64,000 nt of DNA, from positions 44,149,560 to 44,213,559 of the forward strand of contig OX439043.1 in assembly GCA_949317995.1 (NCBI GenBank), given 5' to 3'. Under the pieces are notes generated by a model. It saw nothing but the letters and a program-made list of their open reading frames with translations. It ran no database searches and was not told the DNA's origin. The position numbers and the translations under genes were made by a program. The stretch is from Acholoe squamosa (Eukaryota; Annelida; Polychaeta; Phyllodocida; Polynoidae). This document shows positions 12,505-63,800 of the stretch, piece by piece (position 1 is the stretch's first letter; each line of letters starts with the position of its first letter).

Positions 12505-12819
12505 TTATTATGTATACTCTTTTTCGATAGAAAACATTTTTCATACACTGCTTTTCCTATATTTGGATACATTTTAAAGAAACAACGAAAAGAGAACACT
12601 TTTTTTTGCCAAGTAGGCAGAGATTGATGGGGACAAAATCGATAAGGAGACGAAGAAGATGACTGGGTGTCTACATGGTACAACCGGACCTTTCAGGATA
12701 TCTGGGTATTCAGGGTAAGAGAGAGAATGGAATTGTTTGCCAAGTTGCATACGAATGCACCATTTGGAGTCTAGATTTTCAATTTCTTTTTCTTAGGTGG
12801 CCCCTACCTAAACTTCATA

Positions 12820-12852
12820 TGGTCGATAGGCACCACTTGTCGTCATTTGGGG
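12820..12852 (+). repeat. 33-bp block with inverted match at 19857-19889
   Basis: The block containing GGTCGATAGGCACCACTTG is repeated perfectly as its complement at about 19857-19889. The two flank the 13.0-19.5 kb element but lie outside its motif-bearing ends. The surrounding sequence does not match in the same way, so this may be a fragment of a dispersed repeat. Confidence 0.6.
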
Positions 12853-13014
12853 TGGGAGGGGCCCCAGAATAAATATAGTAGGACATGTTAAAGTTTTTTT
12901 GTGTGTATACTACAGGGATTGGACCATAACATCCACATATTGGGGTAGGTTAAATATGAAAACTCTACTTACACCACCCTGGTGAAGAAGGCATGTCCAA
13001 GATTGAAAAGTGAC

Positions 13015-13406
13015 GGGGCGATTCGTCTCACGCCCTAACCCTGTGTATTGTGGGATGCCTTAAGACCTTGTAATATATTATCTAACTTAGTTATTGCGAA
13101 TGGTTATGAAAATAGACAGCTAACCTGATAATATGGACCATAAAACATATACATTGGCTTTGATGTCCATCATTTTGCAGTGTGAGAGAAAATGTTGAAA
13201 TTTTATGTGGTACAAGGAAACACCAGTACATCCTACACCCCTTCCTATCAAATACCATAACTAAATGTAAAATGGAATAAATTTATTTATTTATTTATGA
13301 ATAAGTAAGGTATGACCATGAGTTCATCTTGCTATATCGTTATTAGGCCTGCCTGAAAGCATCAGACCACTAGAGCTCCTGTCCAGGGCGTGAGACGAAT
13401 CGCCCC
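13015..13406. mobile_element. 392-bp MITE with 22-bp perfect inverted ends
   Basis: The left end 13015-13036 and right end 13385-13406 are perfect inverted repeats carrying the 19-mer GGGCGTGAGACGAATCGCC. GAC flanks both sides at 13012-13014 and 13407-13409, a possible 3-bp target duplication. The interior has no coding frame. The ends match the motif that recurs through the adjacent transposon (13411-19501), so this is most simply a non-autonomous derivative mobilised by the same transposase. Confidence 0.7.
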
Positions 13407-13589
13407 GACAGGCGATTCGTCTCACGCCCTAGCCCCATGACGGTACCAACACTGCAGGACAGTTAAGCCCCCAGTTAAGCCCCCAGAAATGACCAAACAT
13501 GATTCTCACCATAAAGGGGCTATGAAAGGATGATAGTTGAACAACAGTTGAACATGTAATAACATTTATTAACTGCTTAACATTTCATC

Positions 13590-13640
13590 ATTATCATTAC
13601 TATTACTACTATTATTATTATTACTACTATTATTATTATC
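13590..13640. repeat. ATT/ACT trinucleotide microsatellite
   Basis: A run of TATTA, CTA and TCA triplets with no coding significance. A similar array lies at 18033-18172. Confidence 0.8.
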
Positions 13641-13738
13641 ATTATTACCCCTCTCTTAACGATTAATACATGCAAGGGGTGTGTACAGGGTACAACATAC
13701 AATTCTCCGATAATGGTATAACTACTACTACAGGGGGG

Positions 13739-13953
13739 GGTTAACACCAAAGAAATGACCACAACGCACGGGTGTGAGACGATTCGCCTGCAGCTGCAGC
13801 AGCTAATATATGAGAAAAAGGTGGACGGTTCTTTCAAGTGGTTGGGACCGTTCGGGCGTCAGACGATTCGCCTGCAGCAGCAAATGTATGGGAAAAAGGT
13901 GGACGGTTCTAACCAGAGGTTGGGACCGTTCAGGCGTGAGACGATTCTCCTGT
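13739..13953 (+). repeat. ~215-bp direct repeat, left copy, three motif units
   Basis: This copy and 16761-16968 are direct repeats with about 90-95% identity by eye. Each contains two to three tandem units of about 78 bp. Each unit starts with the 19-mer motif and carries CTGCAGCAGC, then GAAAAAGGTGGACGGTTCT and GGGACCGTT. The pair brackets the transposase-like gene. The arrangement resembles subterminal transposase-binding repeats or promoter repeats. The phrases GGACGGTTC and GGGACCGTT are partly complementary, so hairpins are possible. Confidence 0.8.
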
Positions 13954-14071
13954 CGTAGAAGCATATATATATACAACTTTATACAAAATGCATCAGACCT
14001 CTACAGCTCTACAGCTATGGAGAAATGCTCAGGATGGATGAAAGGTAAATACACTAGTACACAAGCATCAT

Positions 14072-16744
14072 CTACTTCTTCCGCGATGACCTGCGGAGAC
14101 GTACTTGGACTTCCTTGGTGGCCTTGGTTTTGGCGGAGGTCGACTTGGTTGCCCTCAACTTGGTTGCCCTCGACTTGGCTACCCTCGACCTAACTAGCTG
14201 AGGGAGGGGGACATCATCGTTGTCACTCTCAGCAGCAAGTCGTGCCTTCACCTGAGAAAGAGGGAGGTCATCCTCCATGTTGGCCTTGAGGTTGGCAAGA
14301 GGGGTGTCTTCCTCAGAGCTGTCCTCAGAGTTGGGGAGATGGGCTAGAGGAAGCTCGTCCTCAGTGTCATAGCCTGACTCCCCCTCAAAGTCGAACTCTT
14401 CATCCGAGTCTTCACAGACGTCTTCCTCCTCCTTTGCCACAACCTTGGTCTTGTACCATCCGGCACACCCCGGTACAAGCTGCCCAGTGCTCATGCAGCA
14501 AGCTCTGTAGCATGAGGTGCGCCGGACATAGATGGCACCTTGGAAAGCACATGCTTGGTGCATTTCCATAAGCCCAGCCACACCTGGGCTGTCCCAGTCC
14601 TCAACCTCTTTTGTTGACTCCATCACTTCCCTGGATGTAACCTGGACAAGTTGGACCTTGGTTGCTGGTGCAACCTTCTCCACAAAGTTGTCTGCCGATT
14701 GGATGATCTGATTGGTCTTTACGATGCGGTCAGCCAGGCGCTTCATAGCTCCTCCGACCCCGTCGCAGGGGCCTTTCCCGTGCCCGGCCTCGAGCCAATT
14801 CCATGCTGCGACGAGGCCGAAGGTACTGGTAAACCTTAGAAGCATCTGAATGACGTGCCTATTACGGTACTGCGAGGAGGGACTGTCCGTGCAGAAGTGT
14901 ATGGATGTCACATATGAAAATGATGCCTTGATATCTTCTATCAGTTTCTGTATGAATGTGAAGGTAGTTGGAAAGGAGTGGGAGGTAACGGATGTCACAC
15001 CTACGTATGTGTGAGTTATGAGGAGGCCTTCTGGTGATCGTATTTTCACCACCATAGGATGTATGGTTATCTGATCCTTTGAATAGTAGGCTGAGGTGAT
15101 CTCACGCAGATAGGCACAGTTCCAGTTTTCGGAGTAGTCCATTAGTATGACAGCATGGCCCACTGGCAGATTTTCCTCCAGCCTCTTCATCTCACGGTAC
15201 TGCGCCTCAACTCTGCCACAATGTGCACGGAACCCTGGCAGGGCAGCAAGGAAGGTCTTTATGAACACCTCTTTTGGTTCTGACTTGGTGACTAGTTTAG
15301 TGTGATGGACTTCCTTGGTCACAATTTTCTTGTCAACTATGCTCTCCACCTTCTTGCTCACCCGTTCCCATTGCTTGTATGAGACCATCTCCTTGTTCAT
15401 CTTTTGAAGCTCCATCTCTATGGCCTCATCAGTATAGTTGTTTGTCATGGCAGTGGTGCTCTTCGGTAGGGTTGGAACAGCGTCCATCATAAGTGACATA
15501 TTTGCATGTGCCTTGCACAAACAGACGCTGCGTTTTAGGAAGTGATTGAGTTTGATGTACCATGGTCTGGCTCTCCTGAAGGTGGAATACTCTAGGGTCA
15601 TGTTCTCGAATTCTGAGCAGTACTTCCTATGTAGATTAATTAACGTATCTCCAAGAGCGTAACGCTGCTGATTTTTGGTTTGGTGTCTTTTGTCTGGCAA
15701 CATGTAAGAGTTATCGTCACGCTTCATGAAGTCAATAATAGATTGTTTAGTGGCCTCCGTTTTATCGATTCTGGCGGTGCTCGGCTCTTTCTCTTTCCAT
15801 ATATAATCACGAGAAATTTGTACAGTCTCTGCGAGCAAGCCAAGTGTTCCATGATAATTTTTGCCGGCCACAGGCTCCCGGAACAGGCCTTTCTTCACAT
15901 CAACAGAACTCGCCTTCACCTGGCTGGCAGCAATTTGTAGGGTGAGGAAGGCCTTCACCCTATCACTTGTCGGAGTGATGTTCAATTCCTCCATGTTGTT
16001 CATCGTAAGTGTCAATGGGGATGCAGGGGCTGGTGCTGGTTCAACCGGTGCAGCTTCCACTTGTGGCTGTGGATCTGCTGGTTCATGACCCTCCAAACCA
16101 GGGGGTGGGATTGCCTGTGGAGCTGGTGCTGGTTCAACCGGTGCAGCTTCCACTTGTGGCTGTGGATCTGCTGGTTCATGACCCTCCAAACCAGGGTGTG
16201 GGATCACCTGTGGATCTGCTAGTTCATGATTATCAAACCCAGGAGGTGGGGTCTCTCCTCTCAGCGCATGAAAGAATCTCACTACTGGACGACGAGGTTG
16301 TTGCTTAGATGGTGGTGGGAGAGTTGCAGTCCTTGGAGTGGTAGGTTGCCGCGGTACACTTGCGGCCCTTGGAGTGGTAGGTTGCCGCGGTGCACTTGCG
16401 GCCCTTGGAGTGGTAGGTTGCCGCGGTACACTTGCGGCCCGTGGAGTGGTAGGTTGCCGCGGTGCACTTGCGGCCCTTGGAGTGGTAGGTTGCCGCGGTA
16501 CACTTGCGGCCCGTGGAGTGGTAGGTTGCCGCGGTGCACTTGCGGCCCTTGGAGTGGTTGGGTCACCTTGATGACGCATAGCCGCAGCAGCTGCTGAAGC
16601 AAGCTGCTTACGTAGCTGTGCTACTTCCTGTTGTGCAGCATCCAGCTCCTTCTTCATTGCCCTTGCCTTACTCTGGCGAGAGAACGGCAAGGCGACAACA
16701 AGACTGTAATTGATAAAAGAAGTGAACCATAAGTACTGAGTCAA
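14072..16744 (-). CDS. DDE-type transposase-like protein with proline-rich repeat region
   Basis: An intact 890-codon frame. Residues 1-24 may lie upstream of a splice acceptor (TCTCTCGCCAG before AGTAAGGC). A more likely coding start is Met29, or an upstream exon joined at Ser25. Residues 29-56 are heptad-like (coiled coil). Residues 62-140 hold about seven copies of a 12-residue unit, PTTPRAASAPRQ. Residues 165-245 hold a longer Pro/Glu repeat. The conserved core has CLCKAHAN (about 408), MDYSENWNCAY with D536, HFCTDSPSSQYRNR with D620 and GHGKGPCDGVGGAMKRLAD with D661. This D...D...D spacing and these phrases recall a widespread invertebrate transposase-like family with DFAEN-, SDG-SQY- and HGKGPCDG-type motifs. 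The tail is acidic, then Lys/Arg/Thr-rich. The role as transposase is inferred. The undamaged frame suggests a recent or selected copy. Confidence 0.7.
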   Translation of the reverse strand: MTQYLWFTSFINYSLVVALPFSRQSKARAMKKELDAAQQEVAQLRKQLASAAAAAMRHQGDPTTPRAASAPRQPTTPRAASVPRQPTTPRAASAPRQPTTPRAASVPRQPTTPRAASAPRQPTTPRAASVPRQPTTPRTATLPPPSKQQPRRPVVRFFHALRGETPPPGFDNHELADPQVIPHPGLEGHEPADPQPQVEAAPVEPAPAPQAIPPPGLEGHEPADPQPQVEAAPVEPAPAPASPLTLTMNNMEELNITPTSDRVKAFLTLQIAASQVKASSVDVKKGLFREPVAGKNYHGTLGLLAETVQISRDYIWKEKEPSTARIDKTEATKQSIIDFMKRDDNSYMLPDKRHQTKNQQRYALGDTLINLHRKYCSEFENMTLEYSTFRRARPWYIKLNHFLKRSVCLCKAHANMSLMMDAVPTLPKSTTAMTNNYTDEAIEMELQKMNKEMVSYKQWERVSKKVESIVDKKIVTKEVHHTKLVTKSEPKEVFIKTFLAALPGFRAHCGRVEAQYREMKRLEENLPVGHAVILMDYSENWNCAYLREITSAYYSKDQITIHPMVVKIRSPEGLLITHTYVGVTSVTSHSFPTTFTFIQKLIEDIKASFSYVTSIHFCTDSPSSQYRNRHVIQMLLRFTSTFGLVAAWNWLEAGHGKGPCDGVGGAMKRLADRIVKTNQIIQSADNFVEKVAPATKVQLVQVTSREVMESTKEVEDWDSPGVAGLMEMHQACAFQGAIYVRRTSCYRACCMSTGQLVPGCAGWYKTKVVAKEEEDVCEDSDEEFDFEGESGYDTEDELPLAHLPNSEDSSEEDTPLANLKANMEDDLPLSQVKARLAAESDNDDVPLPQLVRSRVAKSRATKLRATKSTSAKTKATKEVQVRLRRSSRKK

Positions 16745-16760
16745 ATCTCTATGTGAGAAG

Positions 16761-16968
16761 GGTTACTACCAAAGAAATGACCAAACACACGGGCGTGAGA
16801 CGATTCGCCTGCAGCAGCTAATATATAAGAAAAAGGTGGACGGTTCTTTCAAGTGGTTAGAACCGTTCGGGCGTGAGACGATTCGCCTGCAGCAGCAAAT
16901 GTATGGGAAAAAGGTGGACGGTTCTAACCAGAGGTTGGGACCGTTCGGGCGTGAGACGATTCTCCTGT
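16761..16968 (+). repeat. ~215-bp direct repeat, right copy, three motif units
   Basis: It matches 13739-13953 in the same orientation, with the 19-mer at 16791, 16869 and 16947. It begins only 17 bp upstream of the first in-frame ATG of the 890-codon gene. It therefore overlaps where that gene's promoter or last upstream intron would be. Confidence 0.8.
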
Positions 16969-16975
16969 TGTGCAA

Positions 16976-17313
16976 TGTTTCCTGGATAGAGTTAAGACCT
17001 AAAAAAATCATGAAGCAAACACATAACGCTATGGTTCAACGAGAAATATATATATTTATTTATTACCTTTTATTAAAGGTGAGAGAAATGACTTTAATAG
17101 ATCTAATATAGTACTTTTATAGCATTTATAGCATTTATATAAGTTAGGCCATTCCTTCTTCTTGGGTAGAAAAATATATATATATATATATAGACTTTTA
17201 AATATCTGTGTACATGTTACATCTTACATCTCTTAAATAGAAGCACCTTGCTGTCTGTATACATGTATATATATATAAGAACTTTCTTAGATTATGTTAA
17301 ATGCAGTTAAATA
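16976..17313. other. Spacer between the two genes of the element; TA-rich
   Basis: A/T-rich sequence with short TA runs at 17173-17192 and 17266-17277. AATAAA-like signals for the upstream minus-strand gene may lie here. Nothing else is supported. Confidence 0.3.
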
Positions 17314-18548
17314 TTAATTTTTCTTCCTCAGGTCGAGAGAATGGGCAAATTTCGTCCTCGGACTTTTCGTAGGAGAAACTGGCTTCTTCTTCTTCTTCTT
17401 CTTCTTCCCTTCTTCCCAGGTCCTATCCACAATATTCTCCATGGTAGCAATGGGGTGGGGGTAGGGCAGGGGCTTAACAGGGGGAGTTGATTTTGATTTT
17501 GTGGAATGTTTGCTGGAAGAAAAGGAAAAATTCTTTTTAACAGAAAAAAAACAACATAGACACACACAAAAAAAAATTGAATGAAATGACAAGGTGCTTC
17601 ATGTATTACAAATAAAAGATGGGGGGAAATAAATTTTATGTTTTACTCACCGAGCAGAGCCAGGATCTGGCTTACGCCGCTTCTCGGGAAGGGGTAGGGG
17701 AGGCTCTGCCTCCACTCCCTGCACTCTACGGGACGACTTCCCTCTACCTTTCCCTTTGCCTTTTGTTGGAGTTGGAGTTTGGTGGCTAGGTCCAGCTACG
17801 GGCTCTTCGGGTTGTGGTGCTGGCAGAGGTGCTGCCTCAGGTGCTGGCAGAGGTGCTGCCTCAGGTGCTGGCAGAGGTGCTGCCTCAGGTGCTGGCAGAG
17901 GTGCTGCCTCAGGTGCTGGCAGAGGTGCTGCCTTAGGTGCTGCCTCAGCTTCAGCCTCAGGTGCTGCCTCAGCTTCAGCCTCACGTGCAGTATCTTCATT
18001 TAAAATATTATAAAAAGTGACAAGACTTAAATTATTATCATTATTATAATTATCATTTGATTATCATAATTATCATTGTTATTGTTATTTATCATTGTTA
18101 TTGTTATTTATCATTATTATTATCATTGTTGTTGTTGTTATTATTATTATTATCATGATCATTATTATTATTGGAACAGGACTGATAGTACAGGTACAAA
18201 CCTTTGTCCCTTTTCAGTTTCGCTTTGTACCTTCTCTTTGATTCGCGGCGACGTTCCTGGAGCTCTGGGTCCAGGTCATCAATGCCCTTCCTCTTTGGTT
18301 TGTATTTCTGAAAGAATAAGAATAAGATAATTTAAGAATCATAATAAAATAATAATTCTTAGAGATAACTTAGTGTCAATATACTTCCAATATACTTCCT
18401 TAAGTTACATAACAGGTAAAGTTACCTCATCTGACAACCTCTTGGCCATCTTCTTCTCCTCTGTTTGTCTTTTCTTGTCATAACACCTCTTCCACCGTTT
18501 ACGAGCACTCTCCAAGGCCGCTGGGGATTTTGGGTCTTTGTAAGGCAT
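17314..18548 (-). CDS. Four-exon gene for a 256-residue basic, repeat-rich protein
   Basis: The coding exons, in minus-strand order, are 18548-18426, 18307-18202, 17993-17651 and 17512-17314, each bounded by AG and GT. Their lengths (123, 106, 343, 199) sum to 771 and the phases agree across every junction, giving 256 residues and a stop. Exon 1 begins with ATG directly after its acceptor (MPYKDPKSPAALESARKRWK). Exons 1-2 are Arg/Lys-rich helices (RKRWKRCYDKKR; RRRESKRRYKAKLKRDK). Exon 3 has about six 8-residue EAAPLPAP repeats (24-nt units). Exon 4 has a run of eight Lys, probably a nuclear signal. Comparable basic N-terminal segments precede the catalytic core in the DFAEN-type family, so it may supply the DNA-binding part, either separately or by alternative splicing to the 890-codon exon. 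That link is inference. The exon 3 acceptor has a weak pyrimidine tract. Confidence 0.7.
18033..18172. repeat. ATT/ATC microsatellite array in intron 2 of the four-exon gene
   Basis: Long runs of TTATCATTG, TTATTA and ATTATC triplets occupy most of the intron between 18201 and 17994. No further function is supported. Confidence 0.85.
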
Positions 18549-18976
18549 CTGCAAGAATAGATTATAAAAAACATACATGGGCGAATCGTCTCACTCCCGA
18601 CACCTACAGACTATGCCTAACATAGGATAAGTGTACCAAATGGACAAGACAGGGTGTGTATTAGTATTCTTTATGATATGGTAATGCCAGGCCAGGTCAG
18701 GCCAGAAAATATGCAGTACAAACAAACTTCATTGAGACAGGCGAATCGTCTCACGCCCGACACTCACATACCTCTGCCTTCATTTTACATAAGACTAACG
18801 GCAGAAAGTGAACCAGATCGGCCGAGCGTAATGTTTACATGTTGCTGAGGTGATTTACAGCCCTAATTACCACACTTAGCTCGATCAATACAGTCTATAG
18901 CATGTTTTCTACATTATTTAATCAAATTTCTTGAAAATTAATGGTTTAAAGCATAATTTTTCATCAATTTCTTACC

Positions 18977-19080
18977 TTGAAAACGTTTAGTCGACCGGCG
19001 ACAAACTTCCAAAGCGCCTGCGTCCGTAACGTTCCTGTCTTTTACACCAGATGGCGGGTCATAGGTTTAGTTCTAGCGAA
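18977..19080 (-). other. Probable 5' untranslated first exon of the four-exon gene
   Basis: On the minus strand a good donor, TTTTCAAG|GTAAGA, has its exon end at 18977. It lies 430 bp upstream of the acceptor that opens exon 1 at 18548. No open frame precedes it, so the exon would be untranslated. Two tandem copies of the 19-bp motif (19089-19126) lie immediately upstream, where the promoter should be, with a third at 19292. Autoregulation by motif binding is possible but unproven. Confidence 0.4.
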
Positions 19081-19503
19081 AACCGCCAGGGGGTGAGACG
19101 AATCGCTGGGCGTGAGACGATTCGCTCCGGGTCGACCTCTGCCTTTGTATAGTGATATCTATTGCTATGGAGCTAGCAGGAAAATGCCCTTGACATGTCT
19201 TATACCTTTGATATGTAGGTGCTTTGTGATATGAATAAGGATGGTTAAATATAAAAACCCTAAAAAATTTGGATATATATATAGAAATTGAGGGCGTGAG
19301 ACGGTTCGCCCTCTGCTTCAGCCCCAGACTACCCCACCGTACATCAATCATTCTGTTCTGCTCTTTGCAGGACCCAGACTCTAATTTTCTTTTTCTCATA
19401 TACAAGTATAAGTTCGCAGAGAAAATGGATGGTATAGATAGACCATGCACTGTGTGTATATTATAGCTAGACCCCCATCTTTGGGCGTGAGACGAATCGC
19501 CTA

Positions 19504-20507
19504 GAAAATTAACCAACCACATTTCTTATTACAGAAAATAAATAACTAAGTCTATACATACCTAAAAGTTCTTCAAAATTTCTTAGACTAATTATACATT
19601 TGCCTAGAAATATCTATGGGCCCTCCTACCAGTAATTTTTTTTTTTTTTATCTCTAAATGTGGATTTTTTGATTTTTTGCCTAAAAAACGAGTTTTTTTG
19701 GGTAGTTCTAGGCCCCTCACTCCCAAAATATCCTTCAGATGTATGGAAAACTAGGGTTCCCCATGTAGCTCTAACCCTGGGCTATCAGAATGAATGATAA
19801 TGACAGGTGTATATATTATTTTCACTGATTTATTAACCACAGAAGGCAGAATGACCAAATGACGACAAGTGGTGCCTATCGACCATATACCCCGGGGAGG
19901 GGGCACTTCCCCTTGAAATGGATACCGACTGCAGCCCGACTCGCGAGAGTGGTGGCAGTGGATTCCCACGTGATCCCGAAAAAGGGGAGCGGTGGATTCC
20001 CATCAGATCTCTAATAGCAGGGCGGTGGAATTTCATTAGTTCCGAAAAGGACTGTAGGGTTTATACACCATGCAAGTGATAAAAAGGCACAGTGCTGGAC
20101 AATGAAAAATTCTGATCCATACAAATACATGAGTACAATAGGGTGCAGGCTTGAAGGGGGGGGGGCAGTCCAGTCAATATTTGGGGTTGTCGAAAAAGGG
20201 GGGGGGGGCGTCAATGTCTAGGTTATCAGTCAAGTAGGGCGGACAGATCTCAAGATCACTGGGAGTTGGGCGGCAGTTGAGGGTGACCAACATATAGTCA
20301 GTGCCCCCCCCCCCCCCGGGATATACCCCTAAGTACAATGATTCAGTAATACGGGTACACAGTTTGTTATCGTTAAAAAGTATCTGAATGCACCATTTTG
20401 CCTCTAGATTTTATCTTCTTTTTTTTTCTAAGGGAGACCCCCAGACCCCCCTACAACAATGGTTATTCATATCTGTGCCTTTGGAATTTTAATGAAACAA
20501 TATTCTA
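19504..20507. other. No gene seen; repeat fragments
   Basis: It includes the inverted 33-bp match to 12820-12852 at 19857-19889, short phrases such as GGTGGATTCCCA repeated at 19958 and 19991, and several G or C homopolymers (20155-20210, 20305-20320). No convincing frame. Confidence 0.35.
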
Positions 20508-35690: not shown

Positions 35691-36054
35691 TAATGATAGC
35701 ATTGGTGCTGCTCTTTCACAGGTCCAAAATGGAAAAGAAGTACCGATAGCTTTTGCTAGCAATACATTGAGTAGAACTCAATGCAACAACTGCACAACTA
35801 AACGAGAACTGTTAGCAGTAGTAGTATATACTAAGAAGTTCAAACATTTCTTGTGGGGAACTGATTTTACTTTACGTACGGATCATTCCTCTTTAAGATG
35901 GTTATTGAATTTCCGAGATGCTGAAGGAATGCTAGACCGATGGCTAGCCTATCTGTCCGAATACGGGCTGGAACATCGCCAGATTCAGCATAGACCCGGA
36001 GTGAAGCATATTAATGCAGATGCCTTGTCTCGAATACCAATTTCGGAAATGTGA
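35608..36054 (+). pseudogene. RNase H domain of the Gypsy element
   Basis: An open block of 148 codons has the Gypsy RNase H signatures: FILDTDASNDSIGAAL (first Asp), TTKRELLAVV (Glu), LRTDHSSLRWL (Asp) and HRPGVKHINADALSR (final Asp). It would degrade the RNA strand of the hybrid. The domain is intact but out of frame with its neighbours. Confidence 0.85.
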
Positions 36055-36061
36055 CAATCCG

Positions 36062-37422
36062 GATTGTACTGACTGTGGGGCTCATAGAGCAGTTCTTGCC
36101 GGGATTCGAAGATCTTTCGAGCCCCGGGTTGCCAGCATACTGGAATGGTCTATGGATCACATACGACAGTTCCATGAAGCTGACTCGATTACTGCACAGC
36201 TACTGCAATTGGTACCAAAGGGTATACGTCCAGTCAGACTGGAGGTCTCTCTGGAGAACCAAGAAATCAGAAGGTTTTTTGCTCAATGGACCAAGCTTGA
36301 AGTCTGGAAGAGTGTGTTATACCGTTGGAAGCCATGTAATAATAGTGAGAGACTCTTACAAGTGGTTAAACCACATGCTATGAGGCATGATATTATGTAT
36401 TATTGTCATGGCCATCGGACCAGTGGTCATTTTGGAAGGAAACACTCACTAGCACAACTTTCTAAAAAATACTATTGGCCTGGCATGTCGCGTGACTTGC
36501 AAAGGTGGATCACCGCCTGCCCGGACTGTTGTAAAAACAAACCAGGACCCGGAATGGTTAAACTTTCCCTATCCCAGGAGGATATCATCATTGGATTTAA
36601 TACAACCGCTAATGATAATACCTGTATGATGGTAGTGTGTGATTACTATACAAAGTATACTAAAGTTTTCCCACTACCGGGTCACAAAGCAATAACCTGT
36701 GCCAAAGCCTTTGTAAAAGGTTGGGTACTGACCTTTGGTGTACCACTTATGCTGCACAGTGACCAAGGCAGAGAATTCGAATCAAATATCTGGCAAGGGA
36801 TGTGCGAATATCTAGCCATTTGCAAAACTAGAACCAATCCATATCGGCCTCAGAGTGATGGATTGGTTGAATAGAACCCTCATTAAGGTCCTGAAGTCAC
36901 TCGTAAATGAGAATATGGATGACTGGGACGAGCAGTGTCATTTTGTGACACATGCTTAAAACAGTACGATATATTCAAGTACTAATTGTTCTCCGAACCA
37001 GTTAGTGTTCGGAGAAGATTTGATAATGCCTGCTGACTTGGTATTTGGAGTTGTGGGTATGGACCTGGAACTACCTTGCTATATAGTCTTTGTTGAATGT
37101 TTATGGGACAGATTAAAAAATACATGAATCTGTCCGGATTGATTTAGAAAAAAGTGCCCGCTGGCAGAAAGTAGGGTATGATGTAGATTTGAAAATGCGA
37201 AAATTCAAAACCGGAGATAGAGTGTTGAAATTGCACAAACCACTTAGACATGTTAAATTGGCATCTAATTGGGATGATCCTCTCACAATAACCCAGGTTA
37301 TAAGCGATTGTACAGTGATCATTAGATCAGATCTTGGACAACTCTATAAATCCAATGTCGCTAGACTAAGAAAATGGTCTGGGAGGGAGACCTCCACAGA
37401 AATGTACGGTGAAGGATTCTGA
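36062..37422 (+). pseudogene. Integrase of the Gypsy element, copy A
   Basis: The HHCC zinc domain is legible (HGHRTSGHFGRKH, then CPDCC), as is a core with LHSDQGREFE carrying the second catalytic Asp. Compared with copy B (39392-40119), about 33 bp containing the first catalytic Asp are deleted near 36580. The frame ends just after the expected Glu at 36874. A C-terminal block at 37189-37422 (KFKTGDRVLKLHKP, then VARLRKW) resembles a GPF/Y-type module. Non-functional. Confidence 0.8.
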
Positions 37423-39002: not shown

Positions 39003-39392
39003 CTAAATTAGCATAATTTTCTTATTCTTTTGCCTATAACTTTTGATCTAGAAATGGTATTTTCGTTCTGTTTTCACCATAGCAAACCCGGTGAAAAATT
39101 CTTTCGAATGGGTTCATTGAGTTTCCTATTTAGAATGGAAATCATATTTCCATGGCAACAGAAATCAACAAAAATGCCTATTTAGGCCCAAAAACGTTCT
39201 TTTTACAAGCCTTATTTGGAACCTTTTCACCCAAAATATAACATTGTATCAAAAATCGTTGAATTCTCCATAGAAAAGTAACCTATAATTGTTTTAGGCA
39301 TATCTTTCCTATTCTAGCCCATAGTGGTGCCCCCTGGTGGCTAAAACAGGTACTAAATCCCACAAACCCCCATTTCTGCTTGCTGGCTCACA
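39003..39392 (+). repeat. Dispersed ~390-bp repeat, copy 2, inside the Gypsy element
   Basis: It matches 12116-12504 in the same orientation. It separates the inverted integrase (39392-40119) from its own Pol tail (38972-38999). About 400 bp of the integrase C-terminal region are missing at the site. Confidence 0.8.
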
Positions 39393-40119
39393 AATCTTCT
39401 CCGAACACTAACTGGTTCGGTGAACAATTAGTACTTGAATGTACCATACTGTTATAAGCATGTGTCACAAAATGACACTGCTCGTCCCAGTCATCCATAT
39501 TCTCATTTACGAGTGACTTCAGGACCTGAAGGAGGGTTCTATTGAACCTTTTAACCAATCCATCACTCTGAGGCTGATATGGATTGGTTCTAGTTTTGCA
39601 AATGGCTAGATATTCGCACATCCCTTGCCAGAGATTTGATTCGAATTCTCTGCCTTGGTCACTGTGCAGCATAAGTGGTACACCAAAGGTCAGTACCCAA
39701 CCTTTTACAAAGGCTTTGGCACAGGTTATTGCTTTGTGATCCGGTAGTGGGAAAACTTTAGTATACTTCGTATAGTAATCACACACTACCATAATACAGG
39801 TATTATCATTAGCGGTTGTATTAAATCCACTGATGATATCTACTCCGACTTGAGCAAATCTTACTCCAAACAGCTCCTGGGATAGGGAAAGTTTAACCAT
39901 TCCGGGTCCGGGTTTGTTTTTACAACAGTCCGGGCAGGTGGTGATCCACCTTTGCAAGTCACGCGACATGCCGGGCCAATAGTATTTTTTTAGAAAGTCG
40001 TGCTAGTGAGCGTTTCCTTCCAAAATGACCAAAATGACTAATACATAATGTCATACCTCATAGCATGTGGTATAACCACTTGTAAGATTCTCTCACTATT
40101 ATTACATGGCTTCCAACGT
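39392..40119 (-). pseudogene. Integrase of the Gypsy element, inverted copy B
   Basis: This is a minus-strand equivalent of 36320-37020, nearly identical at protein level. It has the CPDCC zinc-binding pair, the segment with the first catalytic Asp (VGVDIISGF) that copy A lacks, and LHSDQGREFE. The position of the catalytic Glu reads Lys (DGLVKRFNRTL). A frame break precedes 39969. The two copies form a large inverted repeat inside the element. Confidence 0.85.
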
Positions 40120-43046: not shown

Positions 43047-44291
43047 ATGAGGGGCAGTTTAGAGGTGCCCTATTACTACTTCCTTTGTGGCTTTGTGATT
43101 GGATCCACCTGGATGTGGATGTCAGGGACACTGTTTGCAGGATCCAATATAGGAAGGATCAGTAGTAGATCAAAATGTCAGCCCCAGGTACTTATAAAAG
43201 GCGCAGGAGAAATGGGAAACCTGGATATCATTAGGTATAGTCCAAGGCCTACTGTAGGTGGTGGTAGTCATAACAAGAAGGAGATAAACAGGATATATAA
43301 CACAGTGGAGCAGAAGCAGGTTGTTCTCTATACCTTACATAGATCAGGCTCTACCTTTACAGGTGAGATCTTTGCTAGACACCCTGATGTTTTCTACATG
43401 TATGAGCCCTTCCAGATGTACCCATTTGATGTAGCTAACAAGCAGAATCACATTAACCAAAATGGGGAGTCATTATTGAGAAGCACCTTGCATTGCAATC
43501 CTCAGCCACTAATTGAAGACATCAAATGTTTCGACTCGAAATCCCCAGAGAGGATAATGAAATGGGCACCTTCGGTGTACTGCTTCTTGGCTCATAGAGG
43601 TGGCTCGAAGACAAATAAAACTTATGCCTCTAGATCGAAGGGTGTTAATGCATGTGACCCTTTTAATATGACATGGATAAAGGTGAAATGCAGTAACAAG
43701 CCACAGGTAGTAACGAAACTGGTCACCCTGACAAACTTCAGCAGTATGCTAGCTTTAATCCATGAAGGTGTGAAGGTTATTCATCTTGTACGTGACCCCA
43801 GAGGACAATTGGAATCTATAAGACGTATAAGGTTTGGTTTGGACATCTATAAGCAGATGCCTGCATCTGGAAGAGCCAGACATGTCTGTAATGTATTACG
43901 AAAAGGTATGAAAGAGTCCACTTTGGCCTGGGAGAATGATGCCAGGGTCCGCCTAAATTACAGAAGAGTGAGATATGAGGATATTACTAGTGACCCTGAC
44001 GGGCTTACACAGAAATTGTTCAATTTCGCTGGGCTGAAGCAAAGTGCAGAGGTCCTAGGGTGGCTGAACGAAACTACCACATCCCAAAAGTCACCTCATA
44101 GAAGGACCTCTGGTGAAAGGGCTTGGCATTGGAGGAAGAGGATTGTGTTGAAGCACGTCACCCTTATCCAGTTATTGTGTGCTGACGTTATAAGACACCT
44201 GGGATATCGGTGGGTTACATCTGATCACGATCTTAGAAATTTAAGTAACTCCCTGCTAGGTTTACCATCGGCACATAACTCTTGGTTATAA
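43047..44291 (+). CDS. Carbohydrate sulfotransferase (Gal/GlcNAc/GalNAc-6-O type), single exon
   Basis: An intact 414-residue frame of a type II Golgi membrane enzyme that would transfer sulfate from PAPS to a sugar hydroxyl of glycoproteins or proteoglycans. A short N-terminal tail precedes one hydrophobic segment (about residues 9-32). The 5'-phosphosulfate-binding motif is TLHRSGSTF at 96-104. The 3'-phosphate-binding motif is VIHLVRDPRGQLES at 244-257. Potential N-glycosylation sites are at Asn190, Asn207, Asn230 and Asn341. Length and motif spacing fit the CHST1/3/5-like family, often intronless in animals. ATG at 43047 precedes the membrane segment directly; no earlier in-frame ATG is better. 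Substrate cannot be told from sequence, so no symbol is given. It is the only clearly intact host gene seen here, between two foldback elements. Confidence 0.9.
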   Translation: MRGSLEVPYYYFLCGFVIGSTWMWMSGTLFAGSNIGRISSRSKCQPQVLIKGAGEMGNLDIIRYSPRPTVGGGSHNKKEINRIYNTVEQKQVVLYTLHRSGSTFTGEIFARHPDVFYMYEPFQMYPFDVANKQNHINQNGESLLRSTLHCNPQPLIEDIKCFDSKSPERIMKWAPSVYCFLAHRGGSKTNKTYASRSKGVNACDPFNMTWIKVKCSNKPQVVTKLVTLTNFSSMLALIHEGVKVIHLVRDPRGQLESIRRIRFGLDIYKQMPASGRARHVCNVLRKGMKESTLAWENDARVRLNYRRVRYEDITSDPDGLTQKLFNFAGLKQSAEVLGWLNETTTSQKSPHRRTSGERAWHWRKRIVLKHVTLIQLLCADVIRHLGYRWVTSDHDLRNLSNSLLGLPSAHNSWL

Positions 44292-50466: not shown

Positions 50467-53400
50467 CATTTTTTTTTAAGGGTTGAAGGTTTTTATTGTC
50501 AAGTCACTAATTAAAATGAGTGATGAAATCTGACAATATGGTGATTCCTTTTAGTCATACAACAGTTTCGTTTTTCCAGCACATTCTAATGAATATAATG
50601 ATACGATGTATATAGGTGAAGATGAAGCATACAAAATATATATAAAGCTTAATAACTAGATTGGAGTGTATTTACAAAAGTAACAGGTTACATTATGTAC
50701 AATTGACGAATGATTATCATTGCAAAGGTTGGAGGTGATTAATCCCCCATAAATACAAATGCTTAATAAAAAGCTGATAGACAAATTTGTTTAACGGAAT
50801 TATGATCAATAAGGAGACTTAAATATATTCTACATATCTGAAGCAATATGTTTCACTAGAAACATGACATAAGAGACCAAGAATTATTATTGTCGGCCAT
50901 AGAATTATGAAATTTTGAGATTTTGGCACCTAAGGATAGTGATATCACTTGGATGAGAGGCCATGTAGCTGGACGGATGGTCAGCATTAGGATTCAATTA
51001 TGAATAGAAGCCCAGTTAAGTCATTACAACCCATCCAGAGCTTCATTCACAATACAATAAATAATAATGGTCATGCACGGCTAGATGGAGTCATTACAAC
51101 CCCTCCCAGCAGCGCAGGACCATCATCCCATAAGAGAGAGGATGAGACTCTGAAATGAGGTGAAGTTATTACAACCCATCCCCTAGGACTCATACATCTC
51201 TCTTTACCTAATCGCTATCCGCCTGTGCAGGGTTGTTACTCTGTTTAGTTAAATCTAGTATAGCATTTATTCTTTTCTTGAAGGTGAATTTATCAACACT
51301 CAATTGGTACCACGAGTCCAAGTTGTCCCAAAGGCTTATACCCCTGAATAGCGGTGAATTATGATAACCATTGTTCCTTGCCCTGAAAGTCTTGAACTTT
51401 ATACTGGCCTCGGAGCGCAGTCCTTCTCGCCTTTCACTATGATCAATCCACTCATCCTTTTTGGACAATTTAAACATGTAGCTCAACAAAAGTCTCTGGC
51501 GTCGGACTGCCAATGTGGTAATGCCAGCCGCGACATACATGTCGTCATCTGTCATATTTTTGCCCCTGTATATGGTTTTGAGTCCCCTCAACTGCATTCT
51601 CTCCAGTTTCTCTAGCATTACATCACTTCCTCCATCATGAACAAAGCTTGCATAATCAAAAAGACTCATAATTGTGCTTTTATAAACTTGTACAGCGGCA
51701 TTTTCAGTTAACAGATTACGCAATTTGCTGAACATAAAAAGCTTAACATGAACTTTTGAGATCAAGTCATTTAAAGCAGGAATGAAATTTAAGTTAGAAT
51801 CAATTTTAAGTCCTAAATATGAATAACTATTCACAGTTTCAAGCATATCACCATACAGATAAAAAATTTCATCTTTACATTTTTTTTTAGTTTGGGAGAA
51901 CTCCCAAACCAACAGATTTTTGTTTTGTCCGTATTGACCGTTAAAAATTTTTCAGTACACCATTGGCCAACCTCCTTGATGGCGTTTTGCAATCGGTCAA
52001 TTATTAGATCTCTTTTGTTATTTGCCGAATAAACTACCAGGTCATCCGCATATAAAGAGAATTTACATGGACTTATTCTTGTTTTTACATCATCACTATA
52101 TAGAATGAATAACAGCAGGCCCAACACAGACCCTTGTGGGACACCAAAATTCACTTCATTTACCACTGACTTAAATGAACCTATTTTTGTATATTAACTT
52201 CTCTTTGTCAAATACGACATTAACCAGTTTAATACTTTATTATGTAAGCCAATTTTGCCAAGTAACTCTATAAGGTAACCATGGTGCATACTGTCAAACA
52301 CCTTTTTTAGATCTAAAAAACAGGCTCCTGTTAGATGACCCCTGTCTCTGCTCTCGTAGATATCGTTTAGAAAACTGAAGATGGCATCACCAGTGCCAAC
52401 ACCCTTCCTGTAACCATACTGCTGTTTACTTAGAAGACTGCGCCTCTCAATTATATCAGTTAAATGGATGTGCATTATTTGTTCCGCAATTTTGGATGGT
52501 ACAGGTAAGAGGGAGATTGGTCTCCAGTTTTTCGTTAATTTTAGATTACCGGATTTAGGTATAGGACATACCCTCCCCATTTTCCAGCAATCAGGAAAAA
52601 TAGCAGTATCGAATGACAATTGCATTAACCAAGTAAACGAATGTAACAAGAACTGCAGTGCTAGCTTGAGGATATCACTCCTAATACCCTCTATACCTGA
52701 TGTTTTGTTCACATTTATTTCATTTACAAATAATTCCACAAGACCTGCATCCACTTTAATTTCACAGCTATTTTCCATCATTGGCTCTTGGTAATCCTGT
52801 CTAGCAGGATGTCCCGAATCAATTATATTTTGTGTTAGTTCACTTCCAATATTCGAGAAATACTTATTTATATAGTCAACTGACTCCTGCTTCGACTTCA
52901 TCATGTTGTCATCACCTAGTATCTCTGGAGGTTCAATCTCCATACACGGTTTTAATAACCCATTAATTATTCGCCAAAACTTCTTAGGATTATCCTTCTC
53001 ATCTTCCAAACTCTTTTTCACATGAGCCGCCTTGGCATATCGTACAGCTTTGTTAATCCTACATCTTAGCTTTCTTGCCTCATCCAAACAAACACTATCC
53101 CCAGTCTTAAGGTACATAATCACATTATCTTCCCGCTTGTGCACGTATGCCAAGATGTCAGGTGTCATCCAGCCCTTTCTCTGATTTACCACTAATTTCT
53201 TTACCCAGGGACAGGTTGTATCAAGATAACATGAAATATGACTTTCAATAAATTCCCATGCAGCATCTGGATCATGTAAATCATAAAAAACATCCCAATT
53301 AGCCTCACATAGCCAGTCCAAAAATTGGTCAGTATTAAAATTTCTATACTGTCTTACCCAAACCTTCTGTTTTATGTATTCAATTTTATCATTAGTTTTC

Positions 53401-53590
53401 ACAACAAAAACCGGAAGATGATCACTAACAAGGTAGTTTAATACACCTGAACATGCTTCTCCACTGAAGTTTGACAAAATATTATCCAAACAAGAAACAA
53501 TTTTCTTAAACGGCCTTGTACATTGACATATTAACATGTGATAACCATATTGATGGAAGTTTGCTTATTTTGGATATAAATAATTATGAT
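50467..53590 (-). mobile_element. LINE (non-LTR retrotransposon), 5'-truncated, decayed
   Basis: Minus strand. Near 53590 remnants of the endonuclease end are legible, then CLDNIL and SDHLPVF motifs. The RT follows at 53200-51900: a fingers block (NWRPISLLPV, QQYGYRKGVGTGDA), VNFGVPQGSVLG, then the catalytic YADDLVV. The C-terminal part at 51912-51208 has AAGITTLAVRRQRLL. One in-frame stop at 52194-52196 and a frameshift at the T-run 51881-51890 inactivate it. The 3' UTR contains three GTCATTACAACCC units (near 51019, 51091, 51168) and ends in an AATAAA signal and poly-A (T-run 50467-50478 on the plus strand). The motifs fit the CR1/jockey-related group; the clade is uncertain. Confidence 0.85.
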
Positions 53591-54913: not shown

Positions 54914-56837
54914 TTGATGCCTGATTTTAATTTAGTATGTACGGTTGACCCGCCTAAGCCCCCCGTTTCTATCATTCCGGGTGATAAAATTAATAATGAT
55001 AGTGTAAAGGTTTATAATTCTTGTGAATTGTCAAAGAATTTATTTAATTCTTATAGTTGCCCAGTACAGGGTGAGGTTGAACCACTTTTTACGGTGGAAT
55101 GTTTAAATAGACCCAGCATCAGGGGCTATGACAGTTGTGTAAATGGGGTATGTATGTGTGAGCATTTCATTTATGGTAGAAAGGCTCAGATACTCCCGTG
55201 TCGACTGGCTAGTTTTCTTAGGCAGTCAGACCTTATTAATATCAATCAGATTGAGTCTGATTTTCTATGGTGTGGTTTTACTGAAGGTTTCAAAATTGTT
55301 GACCAAAGCTGTGACACTTCGTATGACTGTAAAAATTATAAGTCTATTCTAGAAGGAAAATTTTATAATGAAATGTGTGGTATTATTCTTGAGGAGTTGG
55401 ACCAAGGTCTAGTTACAAAAACTGAGGTTAAACCCAAATGTATTCACTCCTTAGGGGGTGTGGAAAAATCTAATGGTAAACTTCGTCCTATTACTGACTG
55501 CAGTATGCCTGATAAAATCTCTATAAATAATTATATGAGTACCACTTCTAGTCCGTTTTCATACAACTCTATTAACACTGTTACAGCTCAGTTAGATAGA
55601 GACGACTTTATGTGTGTAGTAGATTTAAAATCTGCTTATAGAAGTGTTAATGTCTATGGCCCACACGTGTGCTATCAAGGTTTCAGGTGGAATTTTGGTA
55701 ATGGAGACGAGTTTTTTGAGAGTAACCGTTTGACATTTGGTCTGAAGTGTGCTCCATATATATTTAGTAGAATATCTGATTTTTTGACTATTATTGCTAA
55801 ATTTTATGGTGTAGATAGGATAGTGAACTACCTGGATGATTTTATTATCATAGCTCAGACTGAAGAGGATTGTTTACGTAAGAGGAACACCCTAATTGAG
55901 TGTATGGAATATTTAGGGTTTGTTGTGTCGAAAGAGAAGGTGACTGAGCCCAGCCAGGTGTGTACTTTTTTAGGTATAACCATTGATTCTACGTGTATGG
56001 AGTTGTCTTTACCTCAGGGAAAATTAGACAAAATGAGCCTAGCAATAGACGAGTGTTTGGGTAAGAAATTTGTATCTAAAAAGGCATTGCAGAAGATTGG
56101 TGGTTTGATGTCCTTTTGCTCCCAGGTAGTACGTGGTGGCAGAACCTTCAGCAGGAGATTGTTTGACCTTTGTGCAAAAGCCAGGAATAGGGGTGTTATT
56201 AGACTTAATGAGGAAACTCAAAAGGACCTACTATGGTGGAGGGATTTTTTGTAGGATCTTCAATTGTAAAAATATCATTTTGAATGATAACGACTGTACC
56301 CCTATGTATTCTGATTCTTCAATTCAGGGTTTTGGTGCCTGGTATGGTACAGATTATTTATATGGTACTTGGTCAGATACGGACCCCTTGGATGACCTTT
56401 GTGGTCATTTTGTAAAATCTCCAAAGTTGGATATTTTGAGAGTTCACCATAGAAATATTAATGTATATGAGTTGTATCCAGTTATGGTGGGCCTTAAACG
56501 TTGGTTAAAAAATTTTAAGAATACCCGGGTTCATTGTATACCTGATAACATGCAGGTTCTGGCCATGTTAAATACGGGTCGTTCAAAAAATAAGTTATGT
56601 ATGGAATGGCTACGTGAAATTTTTTGGCTATGTTTCATTCATAATATTGAAATTTATTCTACATATATAAGGTCAGAGGAGAACATTTTAGCTGATCATT
56701 TGTCAAGGCTGATGTATAAAGGTGTTCCTAAGAAATGTAAAAATACCCTGGCTGAATATAATATGTGTTGCTATGCTTCCAGATCTGAGGGAGCTAGAGC
56801 GGAGAAGGAGAAGGTTGTTGTACAGGGGCGTGGCTGA
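54914..56837 (+). CDS. Reverse transcriptase/RNase H of the Ngaro element, one frameshift
   Basis: The first block, 54914-56254 (446 codons), holds the RT. Motifs are HSLGGVEKSNGKLRPITDCS (fingers), DFMCVVDLKSAYRSV (catalytic Asp), NRLTFGLKCAPYIFSRI, and VNYLDDFIII with the catalytic YLDD, then LGFVVSKEKV and CTFLGITID (thumb). The reading continues in the +1 frame from about 56250 to 56837 with the RNase H part. That part has MYSDSSIQGFGAWYGTDY (first Asp), VYELYPVMVGLKRW (Glu), CIPDNMQVLAML (Asp) and SEENILADHLSRL (final Asp). The shift falls at a run of six T near 56246, so it may be a mutation or programmed slippage. Otherwise all catalytic residues are present. Confidence 0.88.
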
Positions 56838-60899: not shown

Positions 60900-63800
60900 C
60901 CAGCCGTTTTGACCATGAGAAATATACTATCAAAGGCTGCAGACATAAGGGCTATCCAGTAGGTCGCAACGCAGCTAACGCATGGGCTAGATACTCTGAC
61001 TCCATCCACCAGACTGAGGGAGCTAAAAAGAATTACTTCTAGTAAAGACGGTTGTTTAACCATCTTCCCCTACCCTGTCCCTCACCCCACCCCCTCCCCC
61101 TCACATCCCCTTCCCTTTCTTCTTCAGAGTCAGTGTCTGGGTGTAAGGGGGACTTGTGTAGACGTCTTTGGAAAACAAACTTATTATCAGATAATTGGGC
61201 ATGTGGTGCAGGTTTGTCCCACAACACTTTGCCTCTGTACATAGGTCCTTTCTTATACTTTTCTAGCCTTGGTCTTCTAAGCTTGATTTTAATTTTCCTG
61301 TCAGACAGTGTCCTGGGGTTTTCAGTTGGTATAAGACCCAGTTTTTGGACTCTTTTAAACATGAGTAGCAATAGTTGCTCATCCCTCATGTCCTTTAGGA
61401 GAAGGACACCTGCATCTTTGTGCAACTGTATAGTGTCAATTCTATCATAGTTCCCCTTGCAGATCTTTAAGCCCCTATTTTGTAACCTTTATAATTTCTG
61501 AATATAGACCACACTTGCACCATCCATGATAAAACTACAATAATCAAAAAATGGCAATATAGTTTGTTTGTAAATCTGCAACGCAGTGTATTTGTCAATC
61601 AAGTACCTTAATCTGCCCAAGTTATAGAGCTTTTGGCTGACTGTTTTGACAGTATTTTTAACTTGTGCATCCATAGATAACTTGCTGTCAATTATTACAC
61701 CCAGATATTTATAATCATCAGGATTTCCCAGTGGTACATTTTTAACTTGAATGGCTGTTTCTTGGCATTTTTCAACCATGCTACACTATTTGGTTTTGCC
61801 TGCGTTTATTGTTAGGCCATTGGCCTGACACCACCTTGTAACTATAGTCACATCAGATTGTAACTTGTGTGCGGTTTGTCTAGGGTCAAAGTCTGTGGCC
61901 ACCAGCGCAATGTCATCAGCATACAGCTGGATGGCACAATCAGCTATATAATCTTTCATATCATTAATAAAGATTCTGAAAAGCAGGGGCCCCAGGATCG
62001 ACCCCTGGGGCACCCCAAAATTAACCATTTGAGCCTTGGACTTGTGATTATTCAGTAGTGTGACCTGGCAGCACCCTCCCAGGTACCCACTCAGCCACTT
62101 AGCAAACCCAACACCTAATCCATAAACACGAATCTTCTTAACGAGTAGAGTCTGGTGGATGGAGTTAAAAGCCTTGCTGAAGTCGACATAACACACCCCA
62201 GCAGTTTTACCCTCATCTCTGGTGGTGTATAGCTCATCAGTGAGGTTGAAGACTGCTTCAGCAGTCTCCATTCCCTTTCTAAAACCGTATTGCTTATAAG
62301 ACAATAGTTTCTCATCTTCGAGTTTATCAGTAATGCAAGAGTGAACTAATTTCTCTAACAGTTTGCCAGGTAGTGGCAATAGGCTCACAGGGTGCCAATT
62401 TGAGACATCAGAGAGGGAGCCTGACTTAGGAATTGGGATGACCATTGCTCTCGACCATTCGTCAGGAAAAATACCTTTCGATATACTGCAATTAAAAAGG
62501 TTCCTCAGTTGTAGTATAATCACCGAAAAAGCATCCTTGCATACCCTGGCAGATATAAACTCTAGACCAGATGATTTTTCAATGCAGATGTTGCTCACCA
62601 CTTTGGACACCTGTTCATGTGAGAAGGTAGGCTTACCCTTGGGCCAGCCCTCCTCCCCCTATTTAAGGCTTCCTGTTACAGTTTTTCTAGCAGCTTGTCT
62701 AGGTGAAGATTTTCATCACATGGTCTATTATACGTAGCCTCATTGGCTTCAAACAGTCCCTGCCTGATGTTGGCAAAGTAGTTGTTACAGTAGTCTGAGG
62801 CTGCGGCATCAACATGCCTCATGCCATCATGGTCTACAAAGGAGGCCATGGTGCAGCGTTCTTTAGGATTCAAGAACCCATTAATGATCCTCCAGAACGC
62901 CTTCTGGTCATGCCTGTTTTCTCTGAGGTCATCTTTTACCTGAGAACCCTCAGTCTTTTTACAATTTTTAGCAACCAGACGTCTGTGCCTTTTTGCTTCT
63001 TCAAAATTGTCTTTACCCACTTGGCATAAAAAACGTTTTTTTTACGTTAAAAAAACGTTTTTATTGGTTTCCCTATTGGTTATTTGGTTGAAAATTGGTT
63101 AAAAAAACGTTTAAAAACATTTTTTGCCAAGTGGGTATTCTTATTAGCAAGGTAATATCTTACTGCGTCATCCCTATCCCTCACCAGCTCCCTAATCCCA
63201 ATTGCCATCCATTCATTAGCACGGTCTTTACATGTGATATCCTTTATCGGGCAATACCTAGCTAAATATTCCAGCATGTTAGATTTGATTATACTCCACT
63301 TTGTATTGGGATCATCTTCTGCATAGAAATCGTCCCATATGCAATGGTCCTTAAGATCTTCAGCGTTATAAAATTTGTAACTACGGCCCTTAGATGATAA
63401 GTCCCTGACTGGGCCCTTTGCCTTTTTTTTCTGTTGGCATACACAGGGAAATGGTCACTGACCAACTCTATCATCACATTACTTTGCATAACACAATGGC
63501 AGTTGGAAAAATCGAATCAATTCAGGAGCTTTTATCGTCTTTGGGTCTAGTAATGGCCTTGATATATTGCTTCAGCCCCTTAGATTTAGCTAACCCATCC
63601 AGTGCTATTGTGCTTGCTTCCTTGGGCTTCAGTACATTAATGTTGAAGTCCCCCAAGACCCATATTTTGGCTCTCCAATTTATGACTTTATCCAATATTG
63701 TACCCAAATATTCAATAAACTTGTCAACAGATGTGTTTGTTGGGGGCTTGTATACATTAATTATATATTTGATTTTAACTTGAGGCTTTTCTATTTTGAC

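Follow-up and report, generated by a model that had tools for sequence, protein, structure and literature searches.

A two-gene DNA transposon of Acholoe squamosa with a dispersed 19-bp motif, probably a family-specific address read by its second protein

Introduction

En/Spm and other plant CACTA transposons encode two proteins and carry a short motif repeated near both ends. In En/Spm, TNPD is the transposase, and TNPA binds the subterminal repeats and regulates the element (PMC2613891). How such internal repeats and their reader protein change together without losing mobility is described as an open question for plant CACTA (PMC2613891). PIF/Harbinger elements also combine a transposase with a second protein, both being needed there (PMC2836001). 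The present work concerns a 64-kb window (the whole stretch of DNA analysed) of the polychaete Acholoe squamosa (contig OX439043.1; G000:C9:44149560-44213559), in which a 7,064-bp DNA transposon at 12821-19884 carries two genes and 15 sites of a 19-bp motif, GGGCGTGAGACGAATCGCC. The first gene, an open reading frame (ORF) termed ORF1, is transposase-like, and gene 2 encodes a small basic protein. Judged by sequence comparison, the motif is probably a family-specific address, read by the second protein rather than by the cutting part of the transposase.

Several traits recall En/Spm: gene-less derivatives keep the cis sites, a conserved transposase is paired with a fast-diverging second protein and motif, and self-regulation is possible. 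The anatomy appears to fit a CACTA-style second protein acting on a repeated subterminal motif. CACTA membership itself, however, fails on the length of the target duplication, 4 bp and not 3 bp, and on the ends, which read GGTCGATAGG and not CACTA. Unlike those of En/Spm, the two genes are apparently separate rather than produced by alternative splicing of one, and the sites also lie deep inside the element, beside both genes. Furthermore, ORF1 has no Pfam match to any transposase, a difference from En/Spm and the other CACTA elements, and neither ORF1 nor the gene 2 protein matches the PIF/Harbinger family in Pfam. If the reading is true, the En/Spm working principle would operate in what is probably another superfamily. 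One genome here holds two autonomous families with differing motif versions, matching gene 2 versions, and terminal repeats in common, between which the catalytic half was exchanged naturally. Such a family pair separates the cutting part from the address-reading part and makes the question testable with few constructs.

The Motif and Its Layout

At up to 3 mismatches, the window contains exactly 15 motif sites, all within 13017-19501 and in both orientations, and 100 shuffled controls contain none. An earlier note, made from the letters of the window, had likewise listed 15 copies in both orientations and none elsewhere in the window, at positions agreeing to within one base. The sites (mismatch search) and the repeats holding some of them (repeat comparison) are as follows.

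13017-13035, minus strand: motif site 1, exact
13386-13404, plus strand: motif site 2, exact
13411-13429, minus strand: motif site 3, exact
13735-13956, plus strand: three ~78-bp repeats 3' of the transposase gene, a direct copy of 16760-16971
13770-13788, plus strand: motif site 4, 2 mismatches, array 3' of the transposase gene
13854-13872, plus strand: motif site 5, 2 mismatches
13932-13950, plus strand: motif site 6, 3 mismatches
16760-16971, plus strand: three ~78-bp repeats 5' of the transposase gene
16791-16809, plus strand: motif site 7, 1 mismatch, array 5' of the transposase gene
16869-16887, plus strand: motif site 8, 1 mismatch
16947-16965, plus strand: motif site 9, 2 mismatches
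18580-18598, minus strand: motif site 10, 2 mismatches, ~30 bp upstream of the gene 2 start codon
18740-18758, minus strand: motif site 11, 1 mismatch
19089-19107, plus strand: motif site 12, 2 mismatches, in tandem with site 13 near the presumed gene 2 promoter
19108-19126, plus strand: motif site 13, 2 mismatches
19292-19310, plus strand: motif site 14, 2 mismatches
19483-19501, plus strand: motif site 15, exact

Sites 1-3 and 14-15 lie towards the ends, two three-site arrays flank ORF1 (the direct repeats that the earlier note saw bracketing a transposase-like gene), and sites 10-13 lie upstream of gene 2. The genome-wide count proposed as a check in that note finds 1,834 sites when up to 2 mismatches are allowed; the reversed control has none. 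One hundred exact motif places were listed and examined. For 85 of them, a listed exact terminal repeat is no more than 8 kb away; for 11 more, the fetched stretch contains a terminal repeat with 1-3 mismatches (L026, L027, L036-L040), and the remaining four lie in element-derived sequence with no terminal repeat in the fetched stretch (L034, L035). All 100 are therefore part of this element clan. In the 17 long copies taken from the same list, 14-18 motif sites are present per copy. The window and 17/17 of these copies have both genes as well as the motif arrays, and two copies chosen by ORF1 (L060 and L061) have the same layout; the joint travel of genes and arrays supposed earlier is thus borne out.

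The Two Genes

The coding features are as follows.

14072-16744, minus strand: ORF1, transposase-like, 890 codons (open frame, copies, and dN/dS, the ratio of nonsynonymous to synonymous substitution rates)
18426-18548, minus strand: gene 2 exon 1, MPYKDPKSPAALESARKRWKRCYDKKRQ..., present in L060 and L061 at 44-46% identity
18202-18307, minus strand: gene 2 exon 2, also found in family B
17651-17993, minus strand: gene 2 exon 3, with Ala/Pro/Glu repeats and a basic tail, also found in family B
17314-17512, minus strand: gene 2 exon 4 and stop, also found in family B

The genome search finds 19 open ORF1 frames at 99-100% identity, window included, and dN/dS is 0.06-0.08 over residues 248-775 in comparisons with L013, L014, and L022. 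Three Asp residues, 536, 620, and 660, lie within DYSENW, TDSPSSQY, and HGKGPCDG; they could form the DDD site of an RNase H-like fold, the predicted fold giving a hint in that direction. The profile search proposed in the earlier note for the 890-residue protein yields no relevant match in Pfam, NCBIfam, PDB sequences, or phage records, the NCBIfam and phage matches falling in Pro-rich repeats. For the conserved region, Pfam offers no transposase match, tnp2-type included, at E up to 10, in a comparison of a single sequence with profiles that can miss distant relatives. No relative turned up when viral contigs were scanned with ORF1, and neither viral nor prokaryote contigs contain a match to a degenerate DNA pattern for the HGKG motif. 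For the predicted structure, poor for want of distant relatives, Foldseek returned no match at E 0.001, and the VIA Z was only middling.

Gene 2 yields a 256-residue basic protein from four exons. A non-coding first exon is also predicted for it, with a donor, placed by eye, near 18975. Its frame is intact in 15/18 copies, window included, with AG/GT kept at the introns in 18/18, and family B (L060 and L061, see below) has all four exons, in order, at 44-68% identity. Judged by these frames, splice sites, and family B exons, gene 2 is a real gene.

Concerted Change of the Motif in a Second Family

L060 and L061, which represent a second family, B, were selected by their ORF1 matches (85 and 86% identical) and not by the motif. 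Their left terminal repeat is identical to that of the window, which belongs to family A; the right one has 3 mismatches, their motif sites stand at matching places, and their ORF1 is interrupted by stop codons. GTGAGAC of family A becomes GTCACAC at 10/13 sites in L060 and 9/14 in L061. Motif residue 7 is G in 14/15 window sites, versus 0/13 in L060 and 0/14 in L061. The four window-exact sites all read GGGCGTCACACGAATCGCC in L060; in L061, one of them carries an additional change. Between the window and these two copies, aligned noncoding DNA is 71-72% identical and the motif sites 81-82% (p 0.003). CpG dinucleotides survive at 28/31 within sites versus 20/33 elsewhere in noncoding DNA in L060, and at 28/30 versus 19/33 in L061.

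Co-segregation with Gene 2 and Exchange of the Catalytic Half

A search with family B gene 2 exon 4, all 84 candidates being scored, gives 69 matches, typed by identity to B as 21 B-type (83-100%) and 48 A-type (48-73%). The B motif has 62 exact sites in the genome, and one lies within 8 kb of 18/21 B-type gene 2 loci versus 1/48 A-type; the lone A-type locus (C6:78608959) coincides in part with a B-type match, and the two probably represent one locus. An exact A motif lies within 8 kb of 23/27 testable A-type loci versus 0/11 testable B-type loci, testable loci being those on the contigs for which the exact A sites seem to be listed in full (C1-C8 and C9 to 44.17 Mb).

The catalytic half of ORF1 has a history of its own, contained in the following tract (informative sites).

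14016-15275, minus strand: family B tract in a family A backbone, 1.26 kb, covering ORF1 residues ~490-890 (the catalytic half, with all three Asp) and the 3' flank

With the types defined from L013, L014, L022, and L031 (A) and from L060 and L061 (B), the window is B-type at 140/141 informative sites in 14016-15275 and A-type at 124/124 in 15276-16010. An A backbone with the B tract is found in the window and 14/17 long copies, and an A backbone with an A tract in L013, L014, and L022; the older L031 also has an A-type tract. Compared in 150-bp steps outside the tract, L013 and the window are 95-100% identical, except for 90.7% at the step touching the tract's left border. In the simplest order of events, an L013-like element would have gained the B tract and then amplified. 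That this chimera multiplied while retaining A motifs and A gene 2 makes the catalytic half an unlikely reader of the motif. The version of the motif goes with that of gene 2, not with the catalytic half of the transposase, while motif, gene 2, and the N-terminal half of ORF1 share their family origin in the fetched autonomous copies. Of the earlier proposal that the motif copies are dispersed transposase sites, one part stands, since they are best read as sites for an element-encoded protein; the catalytic half, exchanged between families with different motifs, drops out as their likely reader.

Ends and Copies of the Element

The boundaries were set by comparing genome copies (1.48 Gb, 63 contigs). 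Homology between the window and independent copies begins at ~12817 and stops at ~19888, which gives the following outer features.

12817-12820, unstranded: left target-site duplication, 4 bp, ATAT (identical flanking 4-mers across copies)
12821-12850, plus strand: left terminal inverted repeat, 30 bp, GGTCGATAGGCACCACTTGTCGTCATTTGG (perfect inverted repeat)
13017-13404, unstranded: 388-bp block between motif sites 1 and 2, an integral part of the element
19855-19884, minus strand: right terminal inverted repeat, 30 bp, perfect partner of the left one
19885-19888, unstranded: right target-site duplication, 4 bp, ATAT (identical flanking 4-mers across copies)

The flanking 4-mers are identical in 15/17 copies with both ends seen, window included; they mismatch in L011 and L024, and the right end of L022 is not present within the stretch fetched. 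Most duplications are ATAT, which alone would be compatible with being part of the element; the duplication is genuine because pairs of ATAC (L021), ATGT (L023), and TAAT (L025) also occur. The 30-bp repeat has 448 genome sites at up to 3 mismatches, versus 0 for the reversed control. These ends and duplications confirm the earlier identification of a DNA transposon. They also correct it, the edges being this different repeat and not the motif.

The supposed miniature inverted-repeat transposable element (MITE) with the same ends, 13017-13404, turns out to be an integral block, which all 17 fetched long copies have at the same position, L025 with 13 bp less. In a genome search with 40 scored of 170 candidates, 33 of the 40 scored matches are checkable against the listed terminal repeats, and all 33 have a repeat at the near or far end: an exact one within 700 bp in 28, an exact one at 6.5-6.8 kb (the far end) in four, and a one-mismatch repeat in one (L027).

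Many near-identical copies show that the element has been active recently. L024 (G000:C8:45780160-45789215) is 9,056 bp long; it has three motif arrays (one extra) and its transposase gene is duplicated in part, a structure that unequal exchange between the arrays bracketing the gene would produce. Of note, C9:73,093,239-73,126,088 (part of which is L032) is a tandem array with a period of ~6.41 kb, comprising one long copy and then repeats each with a truncated copy, which in L032 corresponds to window 12817-15769; the array resembles a segmental duplication. Circle amplification was considered for the 6.41-kb spacing and rejected, the spacing being that of a longer tandemly repeated segment with a truncated copy. 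Both sides of the insertion carry a 42-nt direct repeat (12753-12794 and 20386-20427, 79% identical), perhaps from a host-genome repeat family.

Gene-less Relatives and Motif Conservation

A search with the terminal repeats leads to gene-less relatives, exemplified by L033 (C11:45753255-45754470; 1,216 bp), which has 7 motif sites and matches the element only at its ends. Its family has at least 15 long copies, L033 included, at 82-100% identity among 40 scored of 866 candidates. These ~1.2-kb copies hold 6-8 sites (up to 4 mismatches) in 14/14 cases with both ends, L053 being left out for a missing end, and are flanked by identical 4-mers in 12/14, one being ATAG. In the family consensus, all 7 sites end in TCTCC, not TCGCC, and this variant has 352 exact genome sites. 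The more distant relatives L055-L058, chosen for exact sites of the TCTCC-ending variant, have diverged terminal repeats (GGTCAATAGGCAC...), ~70% identity to the window ends, and 8 sites each. Separately, L059 (G000:C4:24392600-24397500) contains two diverged relatives with 13 motif sites in 4.9 kb, and one end starts TGACGATGGGCACC, possibly a further end type.

The motif is better conserved than noncoding DNA in comparisons of the window with L014, L022, and L029, and likewise with L060 and L061. L009-L040 (except L032 and L033) came from the exact motif list, and L055-L059 from exact variant sites, which biases such tests towards conservation; one rerun drops the four sites exact in the window. 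An excess of motif conservation is favoured for the window ends versus L056, L057, and the gene-less consensus, and for that consensus versus L056, L058, and the window's left end. It is not favoured for the consensus versus L055, L057, and the window's right end, where unequal copy numbers of the tandem arrays misalign. When the exact sites used for finding the loci are omitted, several of the favourable end and consensus comparisons lose significance.

A Two-part Recognition Model and Its Rivals

We consider it rather likely that the element is a cut-and-paste transposon with two-part recognition, modelled on TNPA and TNPD, in which the gene 2 protein reads the motif, and ORF1 reads the terminal repeats and cuts. 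The small basic protein would bind the motif copies, help to pair the two ends, and recruit or license the ORF1 transposase, which would recognise the terminal repeats and cut with an RNase H-like D-D-D site. The site positions fit regulation of both genes: those near them (16791-16965; 18580, 18740, and 19089-19126) may allow the gene 2 protein to repress or tune both promoters. The motif and gene 2 would diverge jointly between families, the catalytic half remaining exchangeable, and the window's subfamily would have amplified while carrying the catalytic half of family B. More tentatively, at somewhat below an even chance, these elements may form a non-CACTA eukaryotic transposon clan with split addressing. 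A fast-evolving second protein and a multi-site motif would then constitute a family code changing in concert at ~12 dispersed sites, with terminal repeats and catalytic half shared and exchangeable, and with an exchange preceding the burst of the window's subfamily.

We rate as unlikely, if well short of negligible, that the N-terminal half of the transposase (residues ~1-490, with a possible helix-turn-helix at ~300-320, by eye) is the motif reader, gene 2 being accessory. Other superfamilies do have subterminal sites to which the transposase binds, and this half shares the family origin of the motif in the fetched autonomous copies. However, with synonymous divergence between A and B equally saturated, ORF1 residues 248-420 remain 88-89% identical, compared with 44-46% for gene 2 exon 1 and 65% for exon 2; in the low-complexity residues 1-247, identity does fall, to 61-65%. 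A site for a host transcription factor or chromatin protein driving or shielding expression would suit the sites adjoining both genes, but gene-less relatives retain 6-8 sites, and the motif version tracks the element's own gene 2, when a host factor needs no differing versions within one genome; we hold this to be improbable. Still less probable are functionless sites, spread and homogenised by tandem duplication and gene conversion. They would account for tandem 78-bp and 19-20-bp arrays of variable copy number and for the decay seen within the non-autonomous family, but the sites are scattered in both orientations, hold their positions while flanks drop to ~70% identity, and keep CpGs that outlast other noncoding CpGs in L060 and L061. 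Scarcely credible is the arrangement of the earlier note, with the motif as terminal repeat of a 6.1-kb element (13411-19501) and a separate 388-bp MITE next to it: the exactness and inverted order of sites 1-3 and 15 speak for it, but the homology of independent copies out to 12817 and 19888, the duplications there, and the position of the block inside long copies rule it out.

Several observations weigh against reading by the gene 2 protein. The full B change is lacking at 3/13 sites in L060 and 5/14 in L061, and gene conversion among sites could equally produce the joint change. No own-type exact site lies within 8 kb of 3/21 B-type and 4/27 A-type gene 2 loci; co-segregation is owed partly to shared descent, and this shared inheritance cannot separate gene 2 from the N-terminal half of ORF1 as the reader. 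The excess motif conservation is non-significant versus L013, L030, L031, L033, L034, L036, L037, and L039, and is reversed versus L040. Within the gene-less family, sites decay like the rest (0.929 versus 0.927), as expected of dead copies. DNA binding is read from the basic composition of the gene 2 protein, because it matches no family in Pfam, and autoregulation is argued from the positions of the sites.

Classification

Target duplications measure 3 bp in PIF/Harbinger and 8 bp in hAT elements. Those of Mutator measure 7-12 bp (PMC10741241). The 4-bp duplication is out of keeping with hAT and Mutator, two of the superfamilies named for comparison in the earlier note. Sola2 duplications are ATAT, AAAT, and ATTT (PMC3627910), and Sola elements are 2-9 kb long with inverted repeats of 11-1124 bp (PMC10741241). 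The present element has a 4-bp, mostly ATAT duplication (also ATAC, ATGT, TAAT, and ATAG), identical in 15/17 long and 12/14 non-autonomous copies, a length of 7,064 bp, and 30-bp inverted repeats. By description, it resembles Sola2 in its AT-rich duplication, size, repeat length, ~890-residue transposase, and three Asp, possibly DDD. The AT-rich 4-bp duplication, size, repeat length, and three Asp suggest a tentative assignment to superfamily Sola. Within the parts covered of the open-licence literature searched, no report turned up of a Sola element with a dispersed subterminal motif or second basic gene, nor of motif and protein coevolution with a catalytic swap.

Other Features of the Window

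The window has no match in Rfam at gathering scores. Retroelement pieces, recognised by integrase (rve, H2C2) or reverse transcriptase ORFs, lie at 36014-36874, 39388-39969, 52194-53537, 54914-56254, and 61786-62610. A 414-residue ORF with a sulfotransferase domain, at 43047-44291 on the plus strand, is a possible host gene.

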